A stretch of 38,643 nt of DNA from a virus, in IMG/VR virus record IMGVR_UViG_3300046804_002293, positions 1-38,643 of that record; one strand, 5' to 3'. The notes beneath the pieces were generated by a model, which saw only the letters and a list, made by a program, of their open reading frames with translations, was not told where the DNA came from and ran no database searches. Position numbers and translations under genes: made by a program. Shown in pieces: positions 12,661 to 32,614 of the stretch (its first letter is position 1; each line of letters opens with the position of its first letter).

Positions 12661-14529
12661 ATGACCGCATCGGGTACCAAGATCTATTCAGGCATCTACA
12701 AGGCCCGGTGTGTCAACGTAACCGGTTCTGAGATAACGGCCTATGTCCCTCAGATGTTTGGGGACGTAAAGGTCACCATGCAGGCCGCTATTGGTGGTTA
12801 CCCATCGGCAGGCTCGTTTGGTTATGTTGTATTTGAGGGCGGTGATCCAGCATTCCCTATTTGGGCCGGGTCTAGTTCTGTATCAGCGTCCTACACAGAA
12901 GATGAGCCTCTCCATAAGGCTATAACAGTTGCGACAAAGGAACCCATCGGGCATACCGATAAGTCGCAAAGCGTCATCTCATTCAATAACAGCACCCGCA
13001 CGTTCAGTATCTCGCCAGTCGGTGACTACTTTGAGGTGTGGTGCGTAGGAACTGCTTACCGGAAGATCTCCACTGAGACGGTTGTACTTCCTGACACCTC
13101 TGCTTTTTATTATATTTATTACTCAAGCGAAGGTGTTCTCAGTTATAAGGCTTCCTACTTTGACTGGGATTCGGATACACCTACGGCTTACGTATACTGG
13201 AACTCAGATACTGATAAGGCTGAGTACTTCGGTGATGAACGGCATGGGATTGTTCTTGATTGGCAGACTCATGAATATCTACACCGTACCCGTGGGGCTG
13301 CTATTGCTAACGGGTTTACGGTTTCTAACTACGTCCTAGGCGGTAATGGGTCTTCCAATACTCACGCGCAATTGGATATTGCCGATGGTACGTTCTTTGA
13401 TGAAGACCTTCAGGTAGATATCACACATTCCAATAGCCCAACGGCTAATACTTGGCAGCAGGATCTACAAGGACCTGCTCGCATTCCGGTACTGTACCGA
13501 TCAGGGGCGCACTGGGTAGTTGATTCGCCTACTGATTTCCCTATGAAACAGGGAACTACGACTATTAAGTACAATACGGTTGTAGGTAGTACGTGGTCGA
13601 CCACCGATGTATCAAATAACCACCATGTTCCCATGTTTATCGTGGCGACAACTAACTTGAATTACCCAGTACTTTCCATAATGGGGCAGTACTCTAATTC
13701 CAATCTTGGAAAAGTTCAGGAGTACGACTGGTCAAGTATGGATTTGGGGGACTTCCCGTCCGTAGAGTTTCGACCTTTATATAAAGTGATCGTTAAGGCT
13801 CTTACGTCAGCCTCAAATACCGTTAAGGCTTCAATCATTGAGATCGAGGATATGCGGGTAGATCAGGTCAATCCCGTAGGTATCTCCCAATCAGTATCTA
13901 GTTCTCCTACCGGCGCTCTAACAGCATTTGCCGGTTCAGAGGCTCCTACGGGGTGGCTTCTTTGTTACGGACAGGCTGTAAGTAGATCTACTTATGCCGC
14001 TCTATATTCCGTAATCGGGACCACTTACGGTTCCGGCGATGGGTCCACTACTTTCAATATCCCTGACCTTCGTGGTCGTGCCCCGGTTGCTTTGGACAAC
14101 ATGGGTGGTAGCGATGCCGGTCGACTGAGCGTGTCTAACACTCTTGGCGGCACAGGTGGTGAGGAAAAGCATTTGCTCATTGTCAGTGAGATGCCTAGTC
14201 ACACCCACTTACAGAACGCTCACACGCATACTCAGAACGCCCACACACATACGCAGGATTCACACGCACACTCGGCTGGTTCGTACGACGGCAGTAACGG
14301 TATCAACAACGCTATTGTTACCGACGGGGGTGGCGGGAATGCTTACCAAGGTCTATATGTTGGCGGCAGTCCTAACGCCCGTATTATTACTAACGGGAGT
14401 ACAGCCACTAACCAAAACACCACGGCCACTAACCAAAACACCACGGCCACTAACCAAAATACTGGTGGGGACGGCGAGCACAACAATATGCAGCCGTATA
14501 TTCTTACCAATTACATCATTAAGACCTAA
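12661..14529 (+). CDS. Tail fibre/baseplate protein with collar domain
   Basis: 622 residues. The N-terminus (about 5-65: GIYKARCVNVTGSEITAYVP ... PIWAG) resembles the OB-fold-like start of baseplate hub/spike proteins. A long beta-rich middle region (100-400) follows. The C-terminus has a phage tail collar domain (GALTAFAGSEAPTGWLLCYG, then FNIPDLRGRAPVALDNMGG). A His-rich segment (HTHLQNAHTHTQNAHTHTQ, with HxH pairs suited to metal binding in a fibre trimer) follows, then a three-copy TNQNTTA repeat and a conserved end LTNYIIKT. Probably a receptor-binding fibre. It opens the virion block. Confidence 0.85.
   Translation: MTASGTKIYSGIYKARCVNVTGSEITAYVPQMFGDVKVTMQAAIGGYPSAGSFGYVVFEGGDPAFPIWAGSSSVSASYTEDEPLHKAITVATKEPIGHTDKSQSVISFNNSTRTFSISPVGDYFEVWCVGTAYRKISTETVVLPDTSAFYYIYYSSEGVLSYKASYFDWDSDTPTAYVYWNSDTDKAEYFGDERHGIVLDWQTHEYLHRTRGAAIANGFTVSNYVLGGNGSSNTHAQLDIADGTFFDEDLQVDITHSNSPTANTWQQDLQGPARIPVLYRSGAHWVVDSPTDFPMKQGTTTIKYNTVVGSTWSTTDVSNNHHVPMFIVATTNLNYPVLSIMGQYSNSNLGKVQEYDWSSMDLGDFPSVEFRPLYKVIVKALTSASNTVKASIIEIEDMRVDQVNPVGISQSVSSSPTGALTAFAGSEAPTGWLLCYGQAVSRSTYAALYSVIGTTYGSGDGSTTFNIPDLRGRAPVALDNMGGSDAGRLSVSNTLGGTGGEEKHLLIVSEMPSHTHLQNAHTHTQNAHTHTQDSHAHSAGSYDGSNGINNAIVTDGGGGNAYQGLYVGGSPNARIITNGSTATNQNTTATNQNTTATNQNTGGDGEHNNMQPYILTNYIIKT
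14403..14465 (+). repeat. Three-copy 21-bp tandem repeat in tail fibre gene
   Basis: Units at 14403-14423, 14424-14444 and 14445-14465 follow GCCACTAACCAAAAC; the first two are near-identical and the third diverges at its end. It encodes a seven-residue Thr/Asn/Gln repeat. Copy number may vary by slippage and change the fibre tip. Confidence 0.85.
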
Positions 14530-23311: not shown

Positions 23312-24640
23312 ATGACCAACATCTATCTCGCTGGTGGCGAAAACCCGACCCACCAGCAGATTCTGTCAGCGTGTGGAGCGATTCACATCGCTGTGAATGT
23401 CACATCTCTGCTACGTAGGAAGACTCTTTCGTGGGAGTTAGACCTTCCATACTCATATGAATGGGTCGCTTACTGCGATGGACCCGCTTCTTTGGAAGAC
23501 CTGCATCTGGTAGCCGACAGGGCCTCGGTCGAACCCAAGTGGGTGCTTGGACCTGAATCATGGTCAGAGTGGGGAGACAACTGGCTGCCTCTTTGGAACG
23601 GTGAGGGTGACCTTCCCAAGAACCGTCCTCACGGATTCGCTGTCACGGATCGGGTGTTCAAGGACGCTTCGCTGCGCCGGAGGTCTCTCGCTGCACGCAG
23701 CGCCGGAAACTGCCTTGGAACGATTACTGGAAGCACTGATCCGACCATCGCCAAGTACGACATCGTCGTTTCGGGGGCTTGGTGGTCGGTCATGAAGTTT
23801 GGCGAAACTCAGGTTTGGGACGGCAAAAAGATGAACCGTCTCAACGCAGAGCGCAAAAACGAAGTACGTACGAGATACGCCTCAGAAATCCAATCCATGG
23901 GTATCGATATCGATCTGATACTCATGGACGACCCTGATGAATCGGCACGACTGGCTGTTACCAGTTGGAATCGCTTTGCTGAAAGTCTTTCAACAGGTAA
24001 TGTATTGACGTTCCCAGTAAGCGCTGAAGTAACTACGGAGGAGAATTCTATGAGCGACTTTCGTGGTTCTTCACCCGATCTTCTTGATACGCGGTCCCCT
24101 AATGGGCGGCACCAAACCGTCCTGCCGGTCATTGGAATGTCATCAATTACGTCCACTGAGCGGTACGGTGACGGCTCTGAAGTCATCGAAGAGCAGGCCA
24201 TCGTTCACACCTCCAGCACCTCGCTACGACAGTGCGATAACTGCTTCCTAGCCTCGTCAGGCTGTCCCGGATTCCAAGCCGGTGCGTCCTGTGCGTATTC
24301 AATCCCGGTGGAGATTCGGTCCAAGGATCAGTTGCAGAGCGTCATGCAGGCCATGGTTGAGATGCAGACTCAGCGGGTGCTTCAGGCCCGGTTTGCCGAG
24401 GAAATTACTGGTCAGGAACTCACTGCCGAGGTCGGCAGGGAACTGGACAGGCTCTTCACATCGGTGGAGAAGATGCGAGACATCATGGACAACCGTGACA
24501 CCGTCAAGGTCACCATGGAGGCCCGTGGTCGGTCAGGAGTTCTCTCACGACTCTTTGGAGATCGTGTTGGAACCAACGCCAAGATGCTTTCGCAACCTAT
24601 CGACTCAGAAGACGTGATCGACGCTGTTATCGATGAATGA
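23312..24640 (+). CDS. Two-domain actinophage hypothetical protein
   Basis: 442 residues from ATG 23312 (four bases after the previous stop). Residues 1-230 start TNIYLAGGENPTHQQIL and include YDIVVSGAWWSVMKFGETQ and SMGIDIDLILMDDPDESA. The second part (from residue 247) has a Cys cluster CDNCFLASSGCPGF ... SCAYSIPVEIR and a helical stretch QSVMQAMVEMQTQRVLQARF, ending in GVLSRLFGDRV. Two-part proteins of this kind occur in other phages as separate genes; the role is unknown to me. A strong ribosome site before residue 247 suggests a second product (see next entry). Confidence 0.65.
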   Translation: MTNIYLAGGENPTHQQILSACGAIHIAVNVTSLLRRKTLSWELDLPYSYEWVAYCDGPASLEDLHLVADRASVEPKWVLGPESWSEWGDNWLPLWNGEGDLPKNRPHGFAVTDRVFKDASLRRRSLAARSAGNCLGTITGSTDPTIAKYDIVVSGAWWSVMKFGETQVWDGKKMNRLNAERKNEVRTRYASEIQSMGIDIDLILMDDPDESARLAVTSWNRFAESLSTGNVLTFPVSAEVTTEENSMSDFRGSSPDLLDTRSPNGRHQTVLPVIGMSSITSTERYGDGSEVIEEQAIVHTSSTSLRQCDNCFLASSGCPGFQAGASCAYSIPVEIRSKDQLQSVMQAMVEMQTQRVLQARFAEEITGQELTAEVGRELDRLFTSVEKMRDIMDNRDTVKVTMEARGRSGVLSRLFGDRVGTNAKMLSQPIDSEDVIDAVIDE

Positions 24641-24691: not shown

Positions 24692-24925
24692 ATGTATCGT
24701 GGGGTCTACCTAACGTCGTGGGGAAACAGGTGGCAGGCGGCCATTCAGTACGGCGGCAAGCGTCGATATCTCGGCACGTATTCAACGCAAGAAAGCGCCG
24801 CCCGAGCGTATGACCGGGAGGCGCTTTCTCTGTACGGCGATGCTGCTCGGTTGAACTTCCCTCTAGGCCGAGAGAATCTTCACGATGGCGAAGACGAAGA
24901 ACATGAAGATGCTGAACGCTCCTAG
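24692..24925 (+). CDS. Stand-alone AP2/ERF-type DNA-binding protein
   Basis: 77 residues. Residues 2-57 form one AP2 domain: YRGVYLTSWGNRWQAAI, KRRYLGTYSTQESAARAYD and LYGDAARLNFP, a close match to bacterial/phage AP2 domains, which usually accompany HNH homing endonucleases. No HNH motif is present, so this is either an orphan DNA-binding protein or a remnant. The last ~20 acidic residues (GEDEEHEDAERS) overlap the 3' end of the leftward membrane gene and may be only read-through. The coding sequence also contains a strong terminator-like hairpin. It sits exactly at the junction of the two genome blocks. Confidence 0.8.
   Translation: MYRGVYLTSWGNRWQAAIQYGGKRRYLGTYSTQESAARAYDREALSLYGDAARLNFPLGRENLHDGEDEEHEDAERS
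24790..24829. terminator. Bidirectional terminator-like hairpin inside the AP2 gene
   Basis: AGAAAGCGCC (24790-24799) pairs perfectly with GGCGCTTTCT (24820-24829); four more pairs (CCCG/CGGG) follow past one mismatch, with a 10-base loop. The A-rich 5' flank and TTTCT 3' flank work on both strands. It lies between the ends of the rightward left block and the leftward membrane/VWA operon, the expected place for a shared terminator. Confidence 0.7.
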
Positions 24926-25294
24926 AACTACGAGCAGCCACGTCGGGAATGCGTAGGACAGTTTGTTGGAGGCCGGTTCTTTCACCCACCGGATCATGCG
25001 TAGCCCGATCAGCAGGCCCAGTCCTACCTGAGCGGCCTTCCACAGCATGATGATCGGGTTCCATGTCCACACGAACAGTGAGATGAACATCATCACCGGG
25101 AAGATGAAGAGCAGGTAGAACAGGATCGCCACCGAGGCCCGGTAGGCGTGGTCGACGGCGATTACTGGGGGCACCCCCTGAGTGCCCTGAGCCTTGGCAA
25201 CCCTGTAGGCGATGTCCGCTTGGGCCAGCCCCAGCGCTGCCTGTGTGGAAGCGCTTGGAAGCAATCCGTTCCGTTTGGCGTAGTTGATAGTCAT
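24863..25294 (-). CDS. Membrane protein
   Basis: 143 residues, leftward. The start is the ATG at 25294, with AAAGGAG about six bases upstream; the alternative ATG at 25315 has no good site. The N-terminal half is soluble (LPSASTQAALGLAQADIAYR). Residues ~55-85 (VAILFYLLFIFPVMMFISLF) and ~120-140 (LVVLGAFSIFMFFVFAIV) are hydrophobic, with a further short hydrophobic stretch in the middle, giving probably three transmembrane helices. It follows the VWA-domain gene in the same operon and could be its membrane partner. No family recognised. Confidence 0.75.
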   Translation of the reverse strand: MTINYAKRNGLLPSASTQAALGLAQADIAYRVAKAQGTQGVPPVIAVDHAYRASVAILFYLLFIFPVMMFISLFVWTWNPIIMLWKAAQVGLGLLIGLRMIRWVKEPASNKLSYAFPTWLLVVLGAFSIFMFFVFAIVKILSA

Positions 25295-25320
25295 ATCAAT
25301 CTCCTTTGGAGTCATCCCGA

Positions 25321-27417
25321 TCAGACGAGGCTGATCAGGATGTTCTCCAGTGCTTGAGGGATGTTGAGCAGGTCACCGATGGCGTACGCCTCGTCGGCAC
25401 CACGCTTGGAGGCCAACTGGTTGTCGGGCTGGAGGTCCTTGGAGTCGGACGAGTACCGGTCGTAGAAGAACAGCACCGAGTAGACGTTGGAGTGCTTCCA
25501 GTTCGACACCTTGATGCCGTCGTGGTTCCACACACCGTCGGTCATGACGATGACGAGGTGGGTCTTCTGAGGGCGCTCCTCGGAGAGGATCGAATTGAAC
25601 GCCGTGGTCGGGTCGGTACCACCGCCCGATCCGACGTAGGGGATGTACTCGGGGGAGTCCTGAGCCTCCCACAGCCGGTACCCGTTCTCGTTGAAGAGCG
25701 ACACGTCGCAGGAGATGCTGAGCCGGTCACAGGCAGCCTTCACGGCCCACGCTGCGGCCCCGAGTTCGTCGCCGGTACCCATCATCGATCCCGAGATGTC
25801 TAGGAACAGGGAGACGGCGAGGTCATGTCCGGGGTCACCGTCGTCGGTGTAGTTGCGGAAGACCTCAACGTCACCGGGCTGGCGGGTGCTGTACCGAAGC
25901 ACGTCCAGCACGCCCCGCCGCTGGCCGGTCTCCCAATGGGGAGCGCAGTCTTCGGTGGCGAGGAGGAAGGCCCGTTCGATGTCGTCCACGATGGCGAGGG
26001 CCTTGGAAGCGGCCTCCTCGTCGGTGCTGGAGGACACCTGTCCCCACTGAGGAAGCGCCCCGCTGTCGGTGGCGTGAGCCTCGTTCATGGCCTGAACGTC
26101 TTCGGACACCGCTTCGTCGTCCTTGAGTTCCTCAAGAGCGTCTTGGAGCGCTTCTCGGATGTCGTTCCTAGCCTTCCACTTGTCCTCGTAGGAGGAGTAC
26201 GACTCTTGGTCATCGTCGCCACCACCGGCACTCATCGAAGTCGACGAGGAGGAAGAGGAAGCCTCGGTCAGGCCCTGAGGCTGGTCGCCGGACTGGCCGC
26301 CTTCGTCGTCCTGCTCGTCGTTTCCGCTGCCCTGCTGGCCGCTGTTCTCCGGCTCGGTGCTGTCGCTCTTCGCCGGGATCGACTGCTGGGTCTTCTGACC
26401 GGTGTCAGCGATGCGCTGCTTGGTCTCCTCGGTACCCGAGGCAGCGTTGGAGGACCGTTCGAACGAACCGTGTGAGTCGGTCTGCCGGACGCTCATGTCA
26501 CCGAGGATGTCCATCATGCGGAGGACCGCTTTGACCATGTCGGTTGCCGTCGTGGCGACCATGTAGGAGACGATGGTCTTCTCCACATCGTCGGCAGTCC
26601 ACACCGGGGATTCCCACAGGGTGCGGGTGGAAGCACGAACCGTGTCGGGCAAGTAGTACCGACCAGCAGCCAGTGCCCACGAGGCGGGACCGCCGCCGTT
26701 GGCGCTTGAGACCATGTTCCGCATGACGAGGACGGTGAGGTAGGAGGAGATGTGGGGAGACTCCTCAACGAGGGCAGCCTCCATGCGCTGATCCTCCAGC
26801 AGGTTCCATGCCATCTGAAGGCGACCAATGTTGCCTCCCGCCCACGACAACGGGGTGTCCTCGGAGTCAAGGGCAGCGGGCTGAGCGATGGTCGACGGGA
26901 CGACGTAGCCCTCGGACCACGCTGCTGTCAGCAGTCCGTAGAACGGCACCGTGAAGAGGATGTGGCCGACCTCGTGGTAGAAGAGGCCACGGGTCTCTGC
27001 GGCGATCTGACGGAGTTCCTCGTCCGAGATGACCGTGTCTTCGACGCTGTCGCCGTAGTTCTTCTTCGACGTGAGGCGGTGGTCGTAGTTGACCGTGATC
27101 GACTTGAAGTCGGTGTAGGCGCTGATGCTGTGCGCCGGAGAGATAGACAGGGGAAGGCTGATACCCCATGAGTTCATGACCGCACGGAGTCGGGGCGTCA
27201 TGCCGTTGCTCACCATGTTCGTTCGGCGGTTTGTCTCACGGTCACGCTCACGACGGGCAGCGCTGGCGATCTCATGACGGGCATCTGCGAGCCGTCGGGC
27301 CTCACGCTCGGAGGCTTCACGAGCAAGGCGACGACGGGTGTTGCTGTGCGCTTGGCGAGCGACCTCGCTTGCCCATTGCTTCTTGCGTGGTTTGCGTGGC
27401 TTCGGTGTCGTAGTCAT
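25321..27417 (-). CDS. CobT-like protein: HExxH region plus VWA domain
   Basis: 698 residues from the ATG at 27417, directly after GGAGCCGCCCT; the open frame extends upstream through the promoter region and that part is not coding. The basic N-terminus (1-60) is a charged helix. HEVGH (148-152) forms a zincin-like site. The middle (~340-450) is Ser/Glu/Gln-rich and low-complexity. The C-terminus is a von Willebrand A domain with an intact MIDAS: LDISGS (D540, S542, S544), GGGTDP (T601) and MTDG (D627). The order matches CobT/'cobalamin biosynthesis protein CobT-VWA' relatives, which act with MoxR/CobS AAA+ ATPases as metal-insertion or protein-remodelling pairs. Its likely partner is the divergent AAA+ gene at 28050. 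Confidence 0.85.
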   Translation of the reverse strand: MTTTPKPRKPRKKQWASEVARQAHSNTRRRLAREASEREARRLADARHEIASAARRERDRETNRRTNMVSNGMTPRLRAVMNSWGISLPLSISPAHSISAYTDFKSITVNYDHRLTSKKNYGDSVEDTVISDEELRQIAAETRGLFYHEVGHILFTVPFYGLLTAAWSEGYVVPSTIAQPAALDSEDTPLSWAGGNIGRLQMAWNLLEDQRMEAALVEESPHISSYLTVLVMRNMVSSANGGGPASWALAAGRYYLPDTVRASTRTLWESPVWTADDVEKTIVSYMVATTATDMVKAVLRMMDILGDMSVRQTDSHGSFERSSNAASGTEETKQRIADTGQKTQQSIPAKSDSTEPENSGQQGSGNDEQDDEGGQSGDQPQGLTEASSSSSSTSMSAGGGDDDQESYSSYEDKWKARNDIREALQDALEELKDDEAVSEDVQAMNEAHATDSGALPQWGQVSSSTDEEAASKALAIVDDIERAFLLATEDCAPHWETGQRRGVLDVLRYSTRQPGDVEVFRNYTDDGDPGHDLAVSLFLDISGSMMGTGDELGAAAWAVKAACDRLSISCDVSLFNENGYRLWEAQDSPEYIPYVGSGGGTDPTTAFNSILSEERPQKTHLVIVMTDGVWNHDGIKVSNWKHSNVYSVLFFYDRYSSDSKDLQPDNQLASKRGADEAYAIGDLLNIPQALENILISLV

Positions 27418-27483
27418 AGGGCGGCTCCAGTGGGTGGGTTGATCAGACAAGGCAAGGATACGGGATGCTTGAGGTAGATGCAA
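27418..27483 (-). promoter_or_regulatory. Promoter P1 with start-associated sequence, for the VWA gene
   Basis: Read leftward: TTGCAT (27478-27483), 17 bp, TATCCT (27455-27460), leader with TCTGATCAACC, and GGAGCCGCCCT (27418-27428) touching the ATG. The -35 begins one base after the upstream gene's stop. It belongs to the seven-member promoter family of the right block. Confidence 0.8.
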
Positions 27484-27705
27484 CTACTTCTTCAAGTCGG
27501 GCTTCTTGCGGCGGTAGATGGGTCGACACCGGTCAGCGGTGAATGAGCGAAACATCGCCTTCCCGTTCGATCCTCCGAAGACGGTCACGTCTCCGTTGTC
27601 GTGCACCTTCTTGAAGAGGAATCGTCCTCGTTCGTTCTTAACCTTGATCTCGGTGTCGATCTCAACGGTCGACCAGTCGATCTTCTTCTCAGGGTTCGTT
27701 GCCAT
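27484..27705 (-). CDS. Small basic hypothetical protein
   Basis: 73 residues, leftward, from ATG 27705 preceded by the start-associated sequence GGAGCCGCCTT (27706-27716). Lys/Arg-rich with a beta-strand-like core (RFLFKKVHDNGDVTVFGG ... FRSFTADRC), like small SH3-like or nucleic-acid-binding folds. It precedes the VWA gene, which has its own promoter. Function unknown. Confidence 0.7.
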   Translation of the reverse strand: MATNPEKKIDWSTVEIDTEIKVKNERGRFLFKKVHDNGDVTVFGGSNGKAMFRSFTADRCRPIYRRKKPDLKK

Positions 27706-27853
27706 AAGGCGGCTCCTTCAAGGGGTAGGGAGTAATGACGGGGGAAACAGTACACCATGCGTCAAGTGCTCGGTTTCTATTACTCACTGCAAACGTGCAA
27801 TCTAGCCATATTTCTATTGCGTTATTGAAAGGTTTGGCCGAAGTTCGATTGCT
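27706..27853. other. Intergenic region upstream of the small leftward gene
   Basis: A 148-base AT-richer stretch between the leftward gene and the intergenic repeat. Apart from the start-associated sequence at its left end I see no -35/-10 pair meeting the family pattern; candidates such as TTGACG (leftward) lack a correctly spaced -10. It presumably carries the promoter of the 27484-27705 gene. Confidence 0.4.
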
Positions 27854-27951
27854 CTCAGATCGCCTGAGAGACATTCGGTGGGGTGGTTGTAGCCGGGAGA
27901 GCCTCAAATCGATTACAGGGCCACACAGGGGGCAATGAGACGAAATCCTTG
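27854..27951 (-). repeat. Intergenic repeat, copy A (inverted orientation)
   Basis: Read leftward, this 98-base stretch matches copy B (35748-35845) at its start (CAAGGATTTCGTCTCATTG then CCCCCTGT), middle (TACAACCACCCCACC) and end (CAGGCGATCTGAG), with a variable part between. No ORF. It lies between divergent genes, upstream of the leftward one. Confidence 0.85.
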
Positions 27952-27979
27952 ATTGACGAAAGAAATCCGAAATTACGTA

Positions 27980-28049
27980 TTGCAATTGTCGCAAGCATCC
28001 CGTATCTTCGTCATCGTCTGATCAACCAAGCCCCAACAGGAGCCGCCTT
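27980..28049 (+). promoter_or_regulatory. Promoter P2 with start-associated sequence, for the AAA+ gene
   Basis: TTGCAA (27980-27985), 17 bp, TATCTT (28003-28008), leader with GTCTGATCAACC, then GGAGCCGCCTT (28039-28049) touching ATG 28050. The spacer holds the shared GCAAGCATCCCG. Confidence 0.85.
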
Positions 28050-29294
28050 ATGACTACCAAGACCAGCAAGATGCAGCCCGGTGACACCTACGTCGTGACC
28101 GGTGGAAAGTTGAAGGGTCGCACGGTGACCGTCGTGGACCCAACCATCTTCCCCGACACCGACATGGTTCGCCGTCGCAAGATCACCGTCGACTTCAACG
28201 GAGAGCACGTCTACCTGCTTCCCCGTTTGCTGGAGTCGCCGTCGACCTACAACGCTCAGCCCAGCAACGTGGTCTCGCTGCCGCCTCAGGGCTACAGCGT
28301 CCCCCACCCGACCGAGGCCAACGAGCGCATCGTCATCCCCGGCAACATCACCGATGTGAACGATCCACGCCTTGACCCGTGGCGACCGGACCCGTCGATC
28401 CTCAAGGGCTACGTCAGCCGTAACGTCCCCAACGGTCAGAGCGACACGGACTTCCTGCTGTCGTTCTACGACAAGAAGGACAACGTGCTGCTCGTCGGTG
28501 ACACGCAGGCCGGAAAGACGCTGCTCGTGCAGGTGCTCGCAGTGCTCGCCGGTAAGCGCACCGCTTCGGGCAAGCCGCTCCCCGTGTTCACCCTCTCCGG
28601 GTCGAACGGTGTGACCGACTTCGACCTGTTCGGTCAGCCCACCGCCTTCACGACCCCCGACGGTCAGGAGCGCCTCGTGTGGCTCCCCGGTGTCTGCGAT
28701 CTCGCAGCCCGAGCCGGTGGTGTGCTCTACCTTGACGAGGTCAACATGATGCCCGAGCGGGTCACGTCGTCCCTCCATCCCCTGACCGACCACCGCCGTG
28801 CGTTCGTCAACCGTCAGCGTGCGGTGCGCTTCGAACACGAGGGCACCGAGGTGTTCATGCCCGACGTGGTCAACGCCAGCGACGACCTGTGGATCGTCGG
28901 CACCATGAACCCCGGCTACAAGGGTGCTGGCAGCCTCAACGAGGCGTTCACCAACCGGTTCCGCTGGATTCCGTGGGGCTACGACGAGGCCGTGGAGAAG
29001 AAACTGATCCCGAGCGCCAGCGTGCGCCTGCTGGGTCAGGCACTCCGTGAGGCCCGCAGTGGTCGGTCGATCACGACTCCGGTCGGCACGTCGGCGCTCA
29101 GCCGCCTGTGCGAGGACGTGGAGGTCTACGGGGTCGACACGGCTCTGTGGATGTTCAAGGCCATGTTCTCCCCGCAGGAGCAGCCCAAGGTGGAGGCCAT
29201 CATCCAAGACCGGTCGATCACGATGCTGCTCAACGACGAGCAGGTCGCCAAGAATGGACCGGCTCCGACCATCGACCCGGTCGAACCGTTCTGA
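28050..29294 (+). CDS. CobS/MoxR-like AAA+ ATPase
   Basis: 414 residues. After an N-terminal ~110-residue region (a beta-rich part GDTYVVTGGKLKGRTVTVVD) comes an AAA+ core: Walker A GDTQAGKT (150-157), Walker B LYLDEVN (228-234, D229/E230), sensor 1-like GTMNPGYKGAG and Arg-finger-like FTNRFRW. Between Walker A and B lies SGSNGVTDFDLFGQPTAF, the CobS/MoxR-type pattern, and the gene pairs with the VWA-domain gene encoded divergently. Such ATPases act as rings, moving a VWA partner or its client. In phages these pairs are not understood. Strongly G+C-rich codon use. Confidence 0.88.
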   Translation: MTTKTSKMQPGDTYVVTGGKLKGRTVTVVDPTIFPDTDMVRRRKITVDFNGEHVYLLPRLLESPSTYNAQPSNVVSLPPQGYSVPHPTEANERIVIPGNITDVNDPRLDPWRPDPSILKGYVSRNVPNGQSDTDFLLSFYDKKDNVLLVGDTQAGKTLLVQVLAVLAGKRTASGKPLPVFTLSGSNGVTDFDLFGQPTAFTTPDGQERLVWLPGVCDLAARAGGVLYLDEVNMMPERVTSSLHPLTDHRRAFVNRQRAVRFEHEGTEVFMPDVVNASDDLWIVGTMNPGYKGAGSLNEAFTNRFRWIPWGYDEAVEKKLIPSASVRLLGQALREARSGRSITTPVGTSALSRLCEDVEVYGVDTALWMFKAMFSPQEQPKVEAIIQDRSITMLLNDEQVAKNGPAPTIDPVEPF

Positions 29295-31194: not shown

Positions 31195-31263
31195 TTGCAA
31201 CTGTCACAAGCATCCCGTACCCTTTCATCGTCTGATCAACCAAGCCCCACAAGGAGCCGCCCT
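31195..31263 (+). promoter_or_regulatory. Promoter P3 with start-associated sequence
   Basis: TTGCAA (31195-31200), 17 bp, TACCCT (31218-31223), leader with GTCTGATCAACC, GGAGCCGCCCT (31253-31263). Includes the imperfect palindrome CTTGCAACTGTCACAAG across the -35. Back-to-back with the leftward promoter at 31156-31185. Confidence 0.85.
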
Positions 31264-31740
31264 ATGAAGACCATGACCTACGACTGGAAGCAGGACGAGA
31301 ACGGTTTCACGGCAGAAGGATTCGCCGTCGAACTCCTCGCCGTGTGGAGCAACGACAGCGATGACCCTTTCGCATTCCCGTTCCACGCCGAGGTGTGGGC
31401 CGACGTAGATATGTCAGACCTCGTCTACTCCGGTGGGTTCCTCACCATCGATGCAGCGAAGTTGTGGTGCGAGTCCGTCGACCTTCAGTGCGTTGTCACT
31501 GAACTCCAATACTCGTCACTCAACGACGAGGCCAGCCATTCGACTCAGCCGACGTGCGCCTGTGGTTGCAGTGCACCGTGGACTGCCACCGATACCGACG
31601 AGTACTTGGACACGCACTTTGAATGCGAAGGTTGCGGTGACGACTACCCGATGGATGACGACTTGGTCGTGGAGCGCTGGACCACTCACGAGGGCACCGT
31701 GGTCGTCTACTTCTGCAAGTCATGCTCGGAGGACAAGTGA
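31264..31740 (+). CDS. Zinc-binding hypothetical protein
   Basis: 158 residues from ATG 31264. The N-terminal half (1-85) is a beta-rich domain (AEGFAVELLAVWSN ... FHAEVWADVDMS). The C-terminal half holds several Cys pairs (CACGCS, CEGCG, CKSC), a treble-clef-like zinc module. First gene behind promoter P3; its TGA overlaps the next ATG. Function unknown. Confidence 0.7.
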   Translation: MKTMTYDWKQDENGFTAEGFAVELLAVWSNDSDDPFAFPFHAEVWADVDMSDLVYSGGFLTIDAAKLWCESVDLQCVVTELQYSSLNDEASHSTQPTCACGCSAPWTATDTDEYLDTHFECEGCGDDYPMDDDLVVERWTTHEGTVVVYFCKSCSEDK

Positions 31741-32162
31741 TGCAGACGTTCCTCCCGTACGCATCATTCGAACAGAGCGCCGTTGTGCTGGATCGACAGC
31801 GCCTCGGCAAGCAGCGGGTCGAAGGACTGCAACTGCTGCGTGCTCTGTCCGGCATGACCAAGGGTTGGGTCAATCACCCGGCAGCGAAGATGTGGCGAGG
31901 TCACGAGTGGCTGCTGTTCGACTACACCCGCACGATCTGTTCTGAGTGGGTCATGCGTGGCTACACCGACACCTGCTACGCCAAGGTCACCGATCTAGCG
32001 AACGAGCACGGGTCGATGTGGGGAGACGTTGAACCCCTGTGGCTCGGTGTCGAAGCAGTCCACCTGTCCCACCGTTCGAACCTCGTCCGCAAGGCCCCGG
32101 ACCACTACGGCCCGCTGTTCCCGGACACACCTGACGACCTTCCGTACGTTTGGCCGTCATAG
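31740..32162 (+). CDS. MSMEG_6728-like protein (pyrimidine-dimer glycosylase-related)
   Basis: 140 residues from ATG 31740, overlapping the previous TGA. Reads MQTFLPYASFEQSAVVLD, RQRLGKQRVEGLQLLRAL and WVNHPAAKMWRGHEWLLFDY, the pattern of the MSMEG_6728 family, related to T4 endonuclease V-type pyrimidine dimer glycosylases (N-terminal Thr/Arg and LGKQR helices). It may protect phage DNA after UV damage; activity is not proved for this subgroup. Ends just before promoter P4. Confidence 0.75.
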   Translation: MQTFLPYASFEQSAVVLDRQRLGKQRVEGLQLLRALSGMTKGWVNHPAAKMWRGHEWLLFDYTRTICSEWVMRGYTDTCYAKVTDLANEHGSMWGDVEPLWLGVEAVHLSHRSNLVRKAPDHYGPLFPDTPDDLPYVWPS

Positions 32163-32166
32163 GTAC

Positions 32167-32233
32167 TTGCAACTGTCACAAGCATCCCGTATCCTTTCAT
32201 CGTCTGATCAACCCAACCCCAAGGAGCCGCCCT
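32167..32233 (+). promoter_or_regulatory. Promoter P4 with start-associated sequence
   Basis: TTGCAA (32167-32172), 17 bp, TATCCT (32190-32195), leader GTCTGATCAACC, GGAGCCGCCCT (32223-32233). Nearly identical to P3. The -35 starts four bases after the previous gene's stop. Confidence 0.87.
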
Positions 32234-32614
32234 ATGGCAACTAACCCCACCACCATCAACCCCACCGCCCGCCGAGTCGACGCCCTCAAGGCGTACGCCA
32301 AGGCCAAGGCGAAGGCCGACGCCGCCAAGGCCGAGGCTGAGGCCGCCAAGGCCCTTCTGCTGAAGGTCTGCCCCGACGAGGGCGTGCTTGAGGCCGAGGG
32401 CTACCGGGCCACACTCGTCCTGCGTGACGTGCTGGACTTCGACGTGCTCGCCGCCGAGACTCTGCTCCCGGCTGCCGACTTCGAAGCCATCACCGTTCGC
32501 AAGATCGCCCCTGCTCGCTGGAGGCTGCTCGCCTCCTCGTTCCCGGAGAACGTGGTGTCGGAGATCGCAATCTCCAAGCCCACGCCGGTCGTCACCCTCA
32601 AGGAGGTGAAGTGA
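32234..32614 (+). CDS. Ala/Lys-rich helical hypothetical protein
   Basis: 126 residues from ATG 32234. Residues 12-48 are an Ala/Lys coiled coil (YAKAKAKADAAKAEAEAAKA). The rest is a small domain (AEGYRATLVLRDVLDFDVLA ... ITVRKIAPARWRLL). The pattern resembles phage nuclease-inhibitor or DNA-binding helper proteins only loosely. Function unknown. First gene of a run of eight small + strand genes reaching 34.57 kb with no further family promoter. Confidence 0.7.
   Translation: MATNPTTINPTARRVDALKAYAKAKAKADAAKAEAEAAKALLLKVCPDEGVLEAEGYRATLVLRDVLDFDVLAAETLLPAADFEAITVRKIAPARWRLLASSFPENVVSEIAISKPTPVVTLKEVK

Follow-up and report, generated by a model that had tools for sequence, protein, structure and literature searches.

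Introduction

A MoxR gene pair in a phage was noted in 2007 (PMC2147016), a pairing of a MoxR protein with a metallopeptidase-VWA protein was described in 2021 from group 2.2 jumbo phages (ASV44729/ASV44728; PMC7824862), and the same pair has been named 'cobST' in viruses of eight host orders, with a proposed role in cobalamin synthesis (PMC8651126). In the related NorQD system, the VWA partner inserts a finger into the pore of the AAA+ protein and is twisted as ATP turns over (PMC13036017). Here we analyze such a pair on IMG/VR virus record IMGVR_UViG_3300046804_002293, a 38,643-base fragment from a tailed virus (hereafter the window, meaning the whole stretch), which encodes a 414-residue AAA+ ATPase and a 698-residue protein with an HExxH motif and a VWA domain. 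A first-pass annotation made from the sequence had regarded this locus as a candidate for an undescribed system, a status that the three earlier reports of phage MoxR-VWA pairs do not allow. With moderate confidence, we take the two proteins to form, in tailed viruses, an ATP-driven machine of two components that processes proteins, cutting or remodeling a specific one.

Results

The AAA+/VWA pair is common in viruses. A profile scan for the AAA+ protein returned 64 viral contigs, and the VWA gene adjoins the AAA+ gene in 62 of them, the remaining two ending at a contig edge; of the three genes whose co-occurrence in phage genomes the first-pass annotation had proposed to survey, these two were adjacent almost throughout. 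Their orientation varies, with divergent or VWA-then-AAA+ arrangements in the clade that includes the window and an AAA+-then-VWA order in actinophages and freshwater viruses. Together with an upstream element shared by both genes (see below), this adjacency supports the two proteins acting as a pair. Both proteins of the window pair are also carried, in identical copy, by a second contig. In the window itself, the VWA gene (25321..27417, minus strand) and the AAA+ gene (28050..29294, plus strand) are divergent, as first annotated, with 633 bp between their start codons; they do not directly face each other, however, because a gene for a 73-residue DUF7246 protein, recognized by domain search and absent from the first-pass annotation, sits between them (27484..27705, minus strand). 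The start codon of the VWA gene is an ATG, and in front of it stands the leader typical of this phage, TGGAGCCGCCCTATG.

The ATPase is of the AAA_5/MoxR type, with matches to Pfam AAA_5 (6.9e-14) and to PHROG 249 'porphyrin biosynthesis' (1.7e-15), and its family profile matches midasin, CbbQ, NorQ and CobS in a PDB search. Walker A (GDTQAGKT, residues 150-157; 28497..28520, plus strand), Walker B (GGVLYLDE, residues 223-230; 28716..28739, plus strand), sensor 1 and the arginine finger are all intact, and K156, E230, N287, R303 and R333 are invariant among 22 viral sequences. The length and motifs first reported for this protein, and likewise the length, coordinates, HEVGH motif and intact metal-ion-dependent adhesion site (MIDAS) of its partner, were borne out. 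In a tree of AAA+ proteins with several long branches and an unsure deep order, the window clade (14 rows, 100/100) is separate from cellular CobS. No close cellular relative was found when cellular genome contigs were searched with the AAA+ profile as a single pattern, which gave partial matches of 24-28% only. Searched against the PADLOC anti-phage defense models, the ATPase gave only weak, generic ATPase matches (best 0.0019), and neither the VWA protein nor the membrane protein encoded behind it gave any. Related ATPases of Staphylococcus phage 812, Listeria phage LP-125 and of Acinetobacter and Lactobacillus phages are followed by a gene with neither an HExxH nor a MIDAS motif, and these loci were excluded.

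The 698-residue partner has no match in Pfam or NCBIfam. Its AlphaFold2 model comprises an N-terminal helix, a folded N-terminal domain, an acidic disordered linker (about residues 311-400; 26218..26487, minus strand; predicted local distance difference test score, pLDDT, <50) and a VWA domain. The N-terminal domain (residues 84-310; 26488..27168, minus strand) is a putative zinc metallopeptidase. It contains the HEVGH motif (residues 148-152; 26962..26976, minus strand) and, at an NxxED spacing, the segment LEDQRME (residues 207-213; 26779..26799, minus strand), a candidate helix for the third zinc ligand. Across 36 diverse viral homologues, H148, E149, H152, E208 and E213 are invariant, and the invariance of the first three indicates that HEVGH is no chance match. 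By motif, HExxH is present in 43 of 45 viral partners, or 46 of 48 when three further cyanophages are counted, and its carriers include the 'CobT' partners of cyanophages (four examined), of HVTV-1 and of E. coli and Klebsiella phage-plasmids. An HExxH motif with a downstream acidic helix is a peptidase signature.

The VWA domain has a complete MIDAS, formed by the DISGS motif (D540-x-S542-x-S544, residues 540-544; 25786..25800, minus strand) and completed by T601 and D627, all of them invariant in the same 36 homologues. A fold search with the AlphaFold2 model found the VWA domains of NorD and midasin, both of them AAA+ partners, as the closest solved folds; a BFVD fold search also listed, weakly, a VWA protein of Acidianus two-tailed virus. 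The family profile matches CobT in the PDB at 4.7e-13, over the linker-plus-VWA part of CobT. The spacing from MIDAS to (S/T)DG is 89 in the window protein. It is longer in the others compared: 108 for a NorD-type protein, 126 for CobT, 141 for a cyanophage protein and 118-121 for those of the Klebsiella and E. coli phage-plasmids. Judged from this spacing alone, the window VWA domain seems to be without the pore-entering finger of CobT and NorD, so that its docking on the ring may differ from that of NorQD.

The two genes share a repeated element, GCATCCCGTAYC-N-TCTGATCAACC, which occurs four times in the window, with 0 copies expected and none in 100 shuffles. Besides the two genes of the pair, those at 31264 and 32234 have it upstream, and the copies with their leaders lie on both strands at 27414-27487 (VWA gene, minus strand), 27980-28052 (AAA+ gene, plus strand), 31195-31267 and 32182-32236; the VWA-gene and AAA+-gene copies align to each other. 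When the two upstream regions were compared within each of 16 clade loci, the divergent loci of the window, L019 and L026 were clearly above shuffles, each with an element sequence of its own, and the tandem locus L029 was slightly above. The first-pass annotation had assigned both genes to one promoter family. The repeat itself stands; the element is probably a phage-specific promoter. A sigma-70 scan of the window did not detect it. The leader AGGAGCCGCCYTATG was seen before additional genes of the window as well.

The pair stands among genes for replication and repair. Within the leftmost 11 kb of the window are genes for an SNF2-type helicase, a possible single-stranded DNA-binding protein, DNA polymerase A, a RecA-like protein and an exonuclease; a tail-collar protein is encoded at 12661, and this and other tail-like genes are found 3-13 kb leftward of the pair. 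To its right are a pyrimidine-dimer glycosylase and another SNF2 helicase. In relatives, the pair is found near Ku, a DUF3987 helicase/primase, DnaB, primase, DnaE, or a sliding clamp with its loader, and in six clade records a terminase lies about 19-77 kb away.

Several further observations concern these loci. The glycosylase (31740-32162) matches PF03013 at 5.7e-23, and 12 other loci encode homologues. In 11 loci of the window clade (L016-L033, e.g., L020:9118-9911) the AAA+ gene has a Ku gene (PF02735) beside or near it; in the window itself none was seen beside the AAA+ gene. At 23312-24640 the window encodes a 442-residue protein with a cysteine cluster that belongs to PHROG 887 'queuine tRNA-ribosyltransferase', and 41 of 69 loci, spread over different clades, have a homologue of it in reach of the pair. 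Three phage-plasmid-like records of 112-114 kb, from Acinetobacter, E. coli and Klebsiella (L080, L081 and L082), have the pair as well, beside dnaE or in a comparable setting; HExxH is retained in the enterobacterial pairs and missing from the Acinetobacter one. On a Natribaculum luteum plasmid (L083:4917-7704), a haloarchaeal MoxR gene is followed by one for a VWA protein with HELGH, possibly a non-viral or provirus member of the group.

Discussion

In the window pair both active sites are complete and conserved, the genes are adjacent, and their upstream element is shared. We favor an ATP-driven machine because the HExxH/ED..(.)E, MIDAS and ATPase residues are conserved, because adjacency persists despite changing orientation, and because the nearest VWA folds are those of NorD and midasin and the ATPase profile is akin to midasin, CbbQ, NorQ and CobS. 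As in its family, the AAA+ protein would form a ring, which would dock on the VWA domain of the partner. ATP hydrolysis would then pull or twist the partner or a MIDAS-bound client, and the client would be presented to the N-terminal domain, a putative zinc peptidase with the pattern HExxH...NxxED...E that is tethered by the long acidic linker. A specific host or phage protein may thereby be cut or remodeled. The remodeling complex acting on host or phage proteins that the first-pass annotation put forward is still the best reading, albeit a putative one. The shared control element, the replication and repair neighbors and the distance from terminase together make early or middle infection the likely time of action.

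Four points weigh on the other side. The N-terminal domain, modeled alone (pLDDT 88.7), has no significant fold match in the PDB, zincins included, and the Pfam family DUF2201_N ('putative metallopeptidase') is matched weakly and by only 4 of the 36 family members. The putative peptidase assignment consequently stands on motif conservation, the fold giving no proof. HExxH has been lost while the pair was kept in 2 of the 48 viral partners, those of a Stenotrophomonas phage and the Acinetobacter phage-plasmid, which suggests that the peptidase is dispensable in some viruses. Lastly, gene position is poor evidence for timing.

Among the alternatives, the one that survives best, although we consider it unlikely, is a chaperone for virion assembly that also matures structural proteins by proteolysis. 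This role was proposed for the group 2.2 jumbo phages by analogy to Acidianus two-tailed virus (PMC7824862), whose VWA protein appears in the fold search mentioned above, and in the window the tail-collar and other tail-like genes are not far from the pair. The wide separation from terminase in clade records, and the replication or repair neighbors in most groups, argue against it.

Improbable, in our estimation, is a chaperone that would insert metal into, or assemble, a single metalloenzyme of phage or host, its HExxH domain carrying metal instead of cutting protein. NorQD, which serves nitric oxide reductase, and CoxDE offer precedents by analogy, and NorD is among the nearest VWA folds; yet the NorD of the locus examined has no HExxH, and the combination of this motif with a downstream acidic helix is that of a peptidase.

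Improbable as well is a viral cobaltochelatase, in which CobS/CobT would borrow the host CobN to raise cobalamin (PMC8651126). The VWA half is akin to CobT, and a class II ribonucleotide reductase lies close to the pair in one freshwater clade, being present in 9 of 35 records, all from that clade. Against this, HExxH is intact in the window protein, whereas it is missing from the four cellular CobT sequences examined, three of them alphaproteobacterial and one from Pandoraea, which keep E-x-A-R-x-E. Curated models gave no CobT match in Pfam or NCBIfam, with none in the window for the CobT family PF06213, and no CobS equivalog in the NCBIfam list. CobN was absent from the 27 viral records searched, the window included, and no large subunit of a ribonucleotide reductase turned up in the window record or in 15 records of its clade, some records in both sets being fragments. 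The AAA+ tree parts the window clade from cellular CobS, and pairs are present on E. coli phage-plasmids. E. coli has no de novo synthesis of the corrin ring. The first-pass statement that no cobalamin gene is present accordingly holds, for the CobT family and CobN, in the window, itself a fragment; its further judgment that metal insertion into a corrin is unlikely also stands for the window clade, and the vitamin B12 label 'CobS/CobT' probably misfits the window pair. An hhalign comparison of the viral and cellular CobT N-terminal domains gave an E value of 0.4, with the ED-x-R-x-E helix as the aligned stretch, and we do not claim homology between them. As a separate observation, 25 loci of the freshwater clade (L034-L076; e.g., L054:13019-15052) have the B12-dependent class II ribonucleotide reductase at a distance of about 3-7 kb from the pair.

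The first-pass annotation also pointed to a membrane protein following the VWA gene, and to possible action at the membrane. The gene is present (24863-25315, minus strand), 5 bases 3' of the VWA gene, and encodes 150 residues with three hydrophobic stretches. Homologues stand behind the VWA gene in two close relatives, L014 (50% identity) and L015 (weak), and genes with two transmembrane (TM) segments but without detectable kinship occupy the same place in L017 and L019. No TM gene is found there in clade loci L016, L021, L024, L026 and L033, or directly after the VWA gene in Gordonia and Brevibacterium phages, and the protein was not found in other viral clades; among relatives its sequence is barely conserved. 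The protein is possibly a partner within the window subclade and is no general third component. A three-part machine at the membrane, with this protein as anchor or client, draws on gene position in the window and four relatives, is countered by the loci without such a gene, and is very improbable, leaving action at the membrane weakly backed.

Returning to the ATP-driven processing machine, the near-universal HExxH of viral partners and its absence from cellular CobT make a peptidase function directly testable at one glutamate. A broader proposal, which we regard as possible rather than probable, denies the widespread viral 'cobS/cobT' genes, among them the core genes of cyanophages, any part in cobalamin synthesis and takes their products for a distinct class of AAA+-driven VWA zinc peptidases; cellular CobT would be a chelatase relative without the peptidase site, and the window clade a fingerless variant with a novel mode of engaging the ring. 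Reports commonly present viral cobS/cobT as auxiliary genes for vitamin B12; if the peptidase reading is true, many B12 annotations in viral metagenomes would have to be revised, and an ATP-driven protease would be added to the phage repertoire.

Compared with known systems, the window pair has the architecture of the jumbo-phage pair ASV44729/ASV44728, a MoxR-type ATPase with a VWA protein bearing an N-terminal metallopeptidase, a likeness drawn from description only; the window clade differs in its contigs of up to 118 kb, its many divergent gene pairs and the membrane gene of one subclade. The viral 'cobST' cluster (PMC8651126; cyanophage CobS and 'peptidase') likewise has an adjacent AAA_5 ATPase and VWA protein, with HExxH as in the window in the four cyanophages and HVTV-1 examined, but the MIDAS-to-(S/T)DG stretch of the cyanophage protein examined is longer, and a cobalamin role is unsupported here. 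Cobaltochelatase CobS/CobT is similar in its homologous VWA half and its AAA+ partner, whereas cellular CobT is without HExxH, has a longer VWA insert and requires CobN. NorQ/NorD, CbbQ/CbbO and midasin share a VWA domain acting on a MoxR/midasin-type AAA+ ring; those systems insert a VWA finger into the pore, while the window VWA is apparently fingerless, and HExxH, present in the window protein, is missing from the NorD-type partner examined. New here are the near-invariance of HExxH across viral groups against its absence in cellular CobT, the upstream element common to both genes, the membrane gene of one subclade and, in the window clade, a VWA domain that is apparently fingerless.

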